Shown here piece by piece: positions 55,481-57,634 of a DNA stretch of 64,000 nucleotides. This DNA is from Acaryochloris sp. CCMEE 5410 (GTDB lineage Bacteria > Cyanobacteriota > Cyanobacteriia > Thermosynechococcales > Thermosynechococcaceae). Location of the stretch: contig NZ_AFEJ02000001.1 of the NCBI RefSeq assembly GCF_000238775.2, positions 4,030,001 through 4,094,000 of the forward strand, in the 5' to 3' direction. The notes under the pieces are model-generated. The model searched no databases, was not told the DNA's origin, and worked only from the letters and a program-made list of their open reading frames with translations. A program made the translations under genes and the position numbers. Position 1 is the stretch's first letter. Every line of letters begins with the position of its first letter.

Positions 55481-55520
55481 CAAACTAAAAAGGTAGACCA
55501 AGGTCTACCTTTTTAGTTTG
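55481..55520 (-). terminator. Strong terminator after tsf
   Basis: A perfect 19-base stem: CAAACTAAAAAGGTAGACC and its complement around a two-base turn. The arms carry runs of A and T that act as the U-tail, making it bidirectional. It starts two bases from the tsf stop. Confidence 0.9.
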
Positions 55521-55521
55521 T

Positions 55522-56256
55522 TTACTTCTTCTTACCTTTTTTCTTCTTAGAAGTAGCCTTTTTGGCCGCAGGCTTCTCTTCGGCAGGTTTCTCTTCTACT
55601 TTAGGCTTGGTTTGGGCTGCCACTTCTTCGGCTAAGTTAGACTCAACTTTATCAATGCCTTCGCCTAGGACAAAGCGAGTAAAGCGACGAACCTTCATGT
55701 TCTCGCCCAGCTTAGAAATAGCCTGCTGCAGCAGTTCTTGGACTGTGATGCTTTGGTCTTTGATATAGGGTTGATGCAAGAGGCATAGCTCTTTTAAGGT
55801 CTTGTCTAACTTGCCTTGGACAATTTTTTCTTTAATATTGTCGGGCTTACCCTTGAGGGCGTCAGAGCCCATGGCCACTGCCTTCTCTTTTTCCACAAAA
55901 TCCTGAGGGATTTCATCGGTATCAACATATTGGACATTGGGGCAAGCGGCGATTTGCTTGGCAATGTCTTGGACCAGTTCTTTAAAAGCTTCGTTGCGGG
56001 CTACAAAATCAGTTTCACAGTTGACTTCGACCAACACACCAATTTGACCACCGAAGTGGATGTAGCTATCAACGAGTCCTTCAGCAGTGACGCGACCGGA
56101 CTTTTTACCCGCCTGGGAGAGGCCTTTTTTGCGCAGATAGGCAATGGCTTTTTCTTGATCGCCATCATTTTCTTGCAAGGCTTTCTTGCAGTCCATCATC
56201 CCTGCGCCAGTTTTATCACGCAGTTCTTTAACATCTTTTGCTGATATTGCTGCCAT
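55522..56256 (-). CDS. tsf: Elongation factor Ts
   Basis: A 244-residue exchange factor for EF-Tu. The N-terminal UBA-like domain contains [18 protein letters not shown], and the core has [20 protein letters not shown]. The C-terminal tail is Lys-rich ([13 protein letters not shown]). It is the second gene of the rpsB-tsf operon, 110 bases after rpsB, a conserved bacterial arrangement. A strong terminator follows. Confidence 0.97.
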
Positions 56257-56365: not shown

Positions 56366-57262
56366 CTATTCAGCCGCAGGCTCTTCTGCCTCAGCCGTAG
56401 GAGCAGCGTCTTCAGCAGGAGCTTCTTCAGGGGCAGCTTCAGCCGTAGGAGCTGCTTCAGCAACAGGCTCGGCTGCTGCGACTTCAGCGTCTGCTGCGTC
56501 AGCAACGGGTTCCGGCGTCTCATCCTCGAAGTCAATGGCAGAGGGAATGTCGTCGCCTTCGAAGGTTTCAGCACTGACTTGTCCATGCCGGCCTTCATAA
56601 ATGGCGTCAGCGAGCTTGCCGATGATCAGTTTGATGGAGCGAATCGCATCATCATTGGCAGGAATGGGAATATCGACCCAATCGGGGTCGCAGTTGGTGT
56701 CTAACAAAGACACAATGGGTAGTCCCAATTTCTGACACTCTTGCACCGCGTTGTATTCCCGGCGGATATCGATAATCACGACCACATCAGGGATCTTATG
56801 CATCTGCTTCAGACCACCGAGGTACTTCTGCAATTTATCCAGCTCTCGGCGCAACATGGACGCTTCTTGCTTGGGCAAGAGGTCAAAAATACCGCTCTCG
56901 TAGCGTCTTTCCAAATCTTTGAGACGCTCAATTCTGGTTTTAATGGTGGTCCAGTTGGTGAGCATACCTCCCAACCAGCGCTGGTTGACATAGTAGCCAC
57001 CGCATCGGGCAGCTTCTTGGGCAATAATGCCAGCGGCTTGTCGCTTCGTGCCTACGAATAAGAATTTCTTGCCAGATTCTGAGGCAGAGCGGACGTAGTG
57101 GTAAGCTTCATCCATCAACTGGGCGGTTTGCACCAGATCAATGATGTGAACCCCGTTACGCTCTGTAAAGATATAAGGGTCCATTTTGGGGTTCCAACGG
57201 CGAGCTTGGTGGCCGAAGTGAACTCCTGACTCAAGCATTTGAGCCAAACTAATAACAGGCAT
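56366..57262 (-). CDS. rpsB: 30S ribosomal protein S2 with acidic C-terminal extension
   Basis: A 298-residue S2 with the typical start ([20 protein letters not shown]) and core ([31 protein letters not shown]). About 60 extra Ala/Glu/Pro-rich residues at the end ([20 protein letters not shown]) form a disordered tail, as in several cyanobacteria. AGGAG is seven bases before ATG 57262. The leader can form a pseudoknot next to this site, pointing to feedback control by S2 itself (inference). Confidence 0.97.
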
Positions 57263-57351
57263 ATTTTTCTCCTATTCGGGTTTCAACCTCCATCTGAGTG
57301 CATTTCTTGCGACCAATGATTTGGCGAGAAACACCCGAATTCTCAGATGTG
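57263..57351 (-). promoter_or_regulatory. rpsB leader with predicted pseudoknot
   Basis: On the transcribed minus strand CATCTGAG (57349-57342) pairs with CTCAGATG (57298-57291), and ATTCGGGT (57340-57333) pairs with ACCCGAAT (57281-57274); the two 8-base stems interleave. A third 8-base stem (TTTCTCGC with GCAAGAAA, 57331-57303) fills the loop between them. The last arm touches the AGGAG ribosome binding site at 57270-57274, so folding could hide it. Remaining gap to 57634 shows no gene. Confidence 0.6.
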
Positions 57352-57634
57352 TGAAGTGTTAACAGCCTTTACAAAATAGCACAACTCCCGAGGTCCCACA
57401 TGGCTTTTTGTCGGGACTTGGCTGGATACATCAGCGACCCCCGCTTTTTGCAGTCTTAAGGAGGTGGGTCCCAGTGCGATAGCCCAGACATTGATCTGTT
57501 TAGGTTGACTAGAATGACAGGGGTGGAATAGAGCAAGATCGCTCCCTCCCTTTTTTTGGGTTTAATAGTTTTTATATACCCGTAGCGATAGTTGCCATCG
57601 CAAAATTTCCAATACCTTAGGTAAACCTAAACTT

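Follow-up and report, generated by a model that had tools for sequence, protein, structure and literature searches.

The leader of rpsB in the stretch of DNA analysed here (the window, 64,000 nucleotides of Acaryochloris sp. CCMEE 5410) is the cyanobacterial form of an element that is already known, the rpsB motif of Meyer et al. (2009), and probably serves the rpsB-tsf mRNA as an autoregulatory leader responding to S2 (uS2), in which an S2-stabilised pseudoknot would block initiation. Both the motif with its pseudoknot and its occurrence in cyanobacteria were published in 2009, and the questions that remain are mechanistic; what is added here is that the pseudoknot lies at the Shine-Dalgarno sequence, which offers a simple and testable mechanism.

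Read on the minus strand, the leader runs CATCTGAG-A-ATTCGGGT-hairpin-CTCAGATG-GAGGTTGAA-ACCCGAAT-AGGAG-AAAAAT-ATG (Table 1). As the initial annotation had it, two perfect 8-bp stems interleave, P1 (57349-57342/57298-57291) and the pseudoknot (57340-57333/57281-57274), the joining loops measure 1 nt (A) and 9 nt in the window, and the last pseudoknot arm directly abuts the AGGAG ahead of rpsB. The feature, which had been placed at 57263-57351, is thus confirmed, but the start of P1 has to be corrected to 57349 and the distance from the start of AGGAG to the ATG is 11 nt, not 12. The internal hairpin proposed between the stems also exists, but reaches the claimed 8 bp (GTGTTTCT/AGAAATGC) only when its two first bases are borrowed from the pseudoknot arm; that version is the minimum free energy (MFE) fold, and about 6 bp are left when the hairpin coexists with the pseudoknot. 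It is probably the P3 of Meyer et al. The joining loop, together with the last bases of P1, forms a UGGAGG-N-UUAA-like element. We also considered whether the GGAGG found here serves as an additional or decoy Shine-Dalgarno sequence and rejected this as a general role, given that the consensus of the Rfam family RF01815 reads UGGUGG there.

Table 1. Features of the rpsB-tsf region in the window (window positions; arms named in the direction of the mRNA)
Feature	Position	Strand	Basis
Predicted extended -10 promoter element TGCTATTTT	57373..57381	-	TGnTAnnnT motif
P1 5' arm CATCTGAG	57342..57349	-	sequence, covariation, RNAalifold
Pseudoknot 5' arm ATTCGGGT	57333..57340	-	sequence, leader alignments
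Internal hairpin, stem GTTTCT/AGAAAT	57302..57332	-	MFE fold, alignment, RNAalifold
P1 3' arm CTCAGATG	57291..57298	-	sequence, alignment
Conserved joining loop GAGGTTGAA	57282..57290	-	leader comparisons
Pseudoknot 3' arm ACCCGAAT, adjoins Shine-Dalgarno	57274..57281	-	sequence, leader comparisons
Shine-Dalgarno AGGAG	57269..57273	-	sequence, leader comparisons
rpsB, ribosomal protein S2	56366..57262	-	NCBIfam TIGR01011, 341.5 bits
tsf, elongation factor Ts, second gene of presumed operon	55522..56256	-	NCBIfam TIGR00116, 229.6 bits
Palindromic terminator-like hairpin after tsf	55481..55520	. (listed on +)	terminator scan

The structure is borne out by comparison of leaders. We gathered 110 rpsB loci (the 80 of the initial collection being the best 80 of 290), of which two lacked upstream sequence and ten were duplicates, and aligned the remaining 98 leaders; the window stands in there for its own copy (L081), and L106 was cut within an insertion, its P1 5' arm being absent from the alignment. 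P1 changes on both sides in seven of its eight pairs, with 96.7% of cells paired. For P1, hairpin and pseudoknot together, 94.7% of cells are paired, a value reached by none of 500 shuffles (mean 87.7%), while pairing falls to 30-56% when the partner is shifted by one, two or three columns, a comparison biased in favour of the tested structure, which was taken from one aligned row. RNAalifold, unprompted, recovers P1 and the hairpin; pseudoknots are beyond its reach. Over its six inner pairs the pseudoknot has 99.1% of cells paired, and one pair outside its GGG:CCC core changes on both sides, from C-G to U-A, in two of the 98 leaders. The core itself is invariant in these 98 leaders and served as anchor for the larger set described below, and since it can therefore not covary, it is neutral evidence.

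That larger and more diverse set comprises 125 leaders anchored on GGGU and ACCC, obtained from 108 usable loci plus 28 after removal of duplicates; the anchor script, which needs GGGT and ACCC, missed two distinct leaders (L194 and L196), one of the 125 is misanchored (52 nt from the ATG), and for L195 and L196 the start was reassigned to an upstream ATG. Among the four pseudoknot positions outside GGGU:ACCC, three exceed all of 1000 shuffles, namely position 5 (paired in 122 of the 125; shuffle maximum 120), position 6 (119; maximum 118) and, the only one with a wide margin, position 8 (87; shuffle mean 53.5, maximum 69), though the leaders are kin and these shuffle counts are not probabilities. 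Position 7 is not above all shuffles (109/125; maximum 110), and at position 9 there is no pairing above chance (40/125; maximum 46). Arm pairs that have diverged and still pair are exemplified by CTACGGGT/ACCCGTAG in L195 and GTTTCGGGT/ACCCGAAAC in L204. The compensatory changes that the initial annotation proposed to look for in both stems are thus present throughout most of P1, whereas in the pseudoknot the retention of pairing is evident at a single position, small at two others and not discernible at position 7.

The element is widespread and specific to its gene. A model built from the 98 leaders, window included (R1; threshold E<=0.01), matches 320 of 388 genomes of the cyanobacterial class, or 151 of 160 genera, and misses 68; a lack of conservation in related strains, which had been named as grounds for abandoning the proposal, is not observed. 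For the misses inspected, the 20 listed from another R1 search, true loss was rejected: 19 have an rpsB match (one is without), and these 19 leaders carry variants, 18 showing both pseudoknot arms by eye and the remaining one (L200) carrying its 5' arm farther upstream. All 33 cross-checked R1 matches, the window and model-member genomes among them, lie directly upstream of rpsB, and the window's genome contains one significant site (next-best E 6.15). Because the window forms part of R1, a held-out model (R2) was built without its family, from 47 leaders judged to lie outside it by handles and titles; as the loci of the initial collection carry no family label, a relative may remain. R2 finds the window leader with 70.1 bits (E 6e-18). 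Its 26 matches among 40 sources (E<=1) are all at rpsB leaders, and the 14 sources without a match are six sister-class loci, the cyanobacterial L196 and seven loci of other phyla; the latter are all of the 11 non-cyanobacterial loci except those of E. coli, Catenovulum, Sinorhizobium and Shinella. The best R1 matches in 19 sister-class genomes (E 9e-4 to 0.09) were judged to be chance and rejected, as none of those listed is at rpsB.

The position of the pseudoknot relative to the initiation site is likewise maintained, the distance of its 3' arm being -1 to 2 nt to the Shine-Dalgarno sequence in 97 of the 125 leaders and 8-20 nt to the start codon in 124. A family of 21 leaders from small genomes (L197-L217, family f2, probably marine picocyanobacteria) has a lengthened pseudoknot and no GGAG, GAGG or AGGA between it and the start codon. 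Another leader (L106, genome G048) carries about 25 extra nt after P1 and ahead of the pseudoknot arm, which may be a P2 stem like that known from Alphaproteobacteria. The searches also returned an rpsB-like match in 59 plasmid-labelled records (e.g. NZ_CP154629.1 and NZ_LT559118.1), and several of the rpsB-bearing "plasmid" records are megabases long and resemble chromosomes or chromids.

The mRNA is predicted to start near 57366, which would place the whole element inside the mRNA. The prediction relies on an extended -10 motif, TGnTAnnnT, present in 116 of 122 leaders within 60 nt before a YACAY anchor, compared with 9.6 expected from mononucleotide shuffles; 78 occurrences are at -29 and 25 at -30 from YACAY, which itself begins 2 nt before P1, and thus about 31-32 nt before P1. 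With the predicted promoter upstream of P1, a start downstream of the element, which the initial annotation regarded as fatal to its proposal, is not indicated. A sigma-70 two-hexamer scan found no promoter at the leader, and our literature search found no mapped transcription start for cyanobacterial rpsB. Transcription attenuation was considered and rejected, because a simple scan shows no terminator in the leader. The call of a terminator beyond tsf is weak, since one was found against a shuffle mean of 2.7; the sequence in question (55481-55520) is an 18-bp palindrome, possibly a terminator for both strands, and also attracts a spurious microRNA match.

We propose that the nascent 5' UTR would form P1, the internal hairpin and, with its 3' arm next to the Shine-Dalgarno sequence, an H-type pseudoknot, that free S2, when it exceeds 16S rRNA, would bind and stabilise this pseudoknot, and that the stabilised pseudoknot would then block initiation on rpsB and lower tsf expression. 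A 30S footprint of the expected size would cover a pseudoknot located at the Shine-Dalgarno sequence. Given the closeness of the arm to the Shine-Dalgarno sequence and start codon, and the 21 leaders without GGAG, GAGG or AGGA, occlusion of the 30S site would be the simplest mechanism. The hypothesis of translational control by free S2, put forward in the initial annotation, is supported by homology to the S2 leaders of E. coli and some Alphaproteobacteria and by the literature. What has been observed are the paired arms, their conservation, the genes around them and the homology to the E. coli leader; for cyanobacteria we infer S2 as the ligand, repression as the outcome and steric occlusion as the mechanism. 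According to a review (PMC10931766), S2 in excess represses rpsB-tsf translation in E. coli with the assistance of bS1, the details of the mechanism are unclear there, and the ribosome binding site lies outside the operator. On that account, the occlusion step is not transferable from E. coli. Our literature search found no cyanobacterial experiment on an S2 leader.

How far other explanations can account for the same observations deserves consideration. Any perfect 8-bp stem is fairly common, turning up in 1614 of 20000 dinucleotide shuffles of the leader, and the plain folding energy of the leader is ordinary (z -1.13; 26 of 200 shuffles fold equally well), so that the case for the element depends on conservation and covariation. 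That both stems should be chance complementarity can nevertheless be practically dismissed: two such stems in the H-type arrangement arose in only 7 of the 20000 shuffles, and the covariation together with the occurrence in 320 of 388 class genomes has already refuted it. A structured ribosome binding site could also set basal rpsB translation or mRNA stability without any feedback by S2. Conservation by itself names no ligand, no direct S2 data were found for cyanobacteria, and the retention of the pseudoknot in the 21 leaders lacking GGAG, GAGG and AGGA might reflect a structural function when translation is initiated. We nevertheless consider this unlikely, in view of the homology to the S2-responsive leader of E. 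coli, the single site in the window's genome, the placement of all 33 cross-checked matches at rpsB, and the conservation of loop and core sequence beyond what the helices need.

Smaller still is the probability that the leader senses another ligand, be it S1, EF-Ts, another ribosomal protein or a metabolite. It is true that bS1 assists S2 in E. coli, as stated in the same review (PMC10931766), and that tsf lies within the same presumed operon; against this, the element stands before rpsB in all 33 cross-checked genomes, and the known E. coli homologue responds to S2 (same review). We therefore retain regulation by S2 as the preferred reading. A further elaboration of it seems possible to us, if somewhat doubtful: cyanobacteria may use an ancient S2 leader in a manner unlike E. 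coli, with a longer pseudoknot set against the Shine-Dalgarno sequence through which S2 would occlude or entrap the 30S subunit, and in one small-genome family (probably the marine picocyanobacteria) the pseudoknot may replace the Shine-Dalgarno region.

A different conserved rpsB leader was encountered in a sister-class family (f44, probably the non-photosynthetic Vampirovibrionia), in 38 of 42 leaders examined. Its consensus is GGUUACACYAGUCYGAUAGG..CCUAGUYC[hairpin]GRAUGRGACRGUAUARCCCGUAGUAC (e.g. L158:2224-2392), folding into a long P1 and a three-way junction. The 38 aligned leaders are among L152-L168 and L229-L256; L169 (wrong anchor), L159, L161 and L167 (no anchor) and also L170 (family f51) were left out. 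Of the 20 pairs proposed for this structure, 12 show changes on both sides across the 38 leaders, a number that 2 of 500 shuffles attain (mean 7.0), and pairing covers 94.1% of cells, compared with 33-50% in slid controls, figures that are biased in favour of the structure by its derivation from the same sequences. Rfam has no match at this leader in the five element-bearing loci of eight scanned, R1 has none at rpsB of this family, and a literature search aimed at it showed no paper describing it; it is possibly an undescribed class of S2 leader. The 20 rpsB leaders of other sister-class families (L257-L276) show by eye, over 170 nt, neither this element nor the cyanobacterial motif.

It remains to compare the window element with the systems already described. 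The rpsB motif, as described in PMC2704228, consists of P1 and a junction carrying P2 and P3, with J2-3 forming a pseudoknot with the 3' extension after P1; Cyanobacteria are listed for it, P2 being absent or very short there, and outside the Firmicutes the pseudoknot has five pairs. In the window the same arrangement is found before rpsB: a P1 that covaries, a junction hairpin, the same pseudoknot, in which the junction strand pairs with the 3' extension (above shuffles at positions 5, 6 and 8, not at 7 and 9), and a 1-nt junction in place of P2, which is where L106 has its insertion. The two differ in the length of the pseudoknot, 8 bp here versus five pairs, and in nothing essential.

The Rfam search recommended in the initial annotation had a divided outcome, in that the window stretch contains no match to RF01815 (E<=1) or to t44 (RF00127), but the best sub-threshold matches of RF01815 do fall at rpsB. 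None of the 39 genomes searched has an RF01815 match at or above its 40-bit gathering cut-off, and the window leader is not listed even at E<=10; the eight best sub-threshold matches in these genomes are nonetheless all directly upstream of rpsB, the ninth lying elsewhere. Chance matches at E<=10 are frequent, occurring in 6 of 14 control genomes, archaea among them. The model aligns in register, below threshold, to one of six cyanobacterial loci (L050, E 0.93), where it shares the P1 register, the UC(C/G)GGU arm, the UGGNGGA(U/A)UAACC element and the arm that follows. It differs in one pseudoknot pair (C-G in its consensus, G-C here), in the P2 that is missing here and in leaving the cyanobacterial leaders of the 39 genomes below its cut-off, an annotation gap that a cyanobacterial-specific model would close.

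The gammaproteobacterial S2 leader, t44, has no match in the six cyanobacterial loci, and yet it shares with the window CACAC before P1 and GUGGAGG-N-UAACCC after it. In E. coli the internal hairpin is longer than in the window, and the arm of a candidate pseudoknot, read from the fold that a simple script ranked second, stops 22 nt short of the ATG, versus 11 here. Both cyanobacterial models match the E. coli rpsB leader (R1 at E 0.0019), and R1 matches five of the 11 non-cyanobacterial loci in register: E. coli, Catenovulum, Acetoanaerobium, Sinorhizobium and Shinella. Among the same loci t44 matches the leaders of E. coli, Catenovulum and, below cut-off, Bacillus velezensis, and RF01815 those of Sinorhizobium, Shinella and, below cut-off, Methylobacterium, five loci having a match to neither. 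The simplest reading of these sequences would be that all of them are forms of one S2 leader, and a single architecture is indicated from E. coli and the Rhizobiales to the cyanobacterial class, where 151 of the 160 genera sampled have it.
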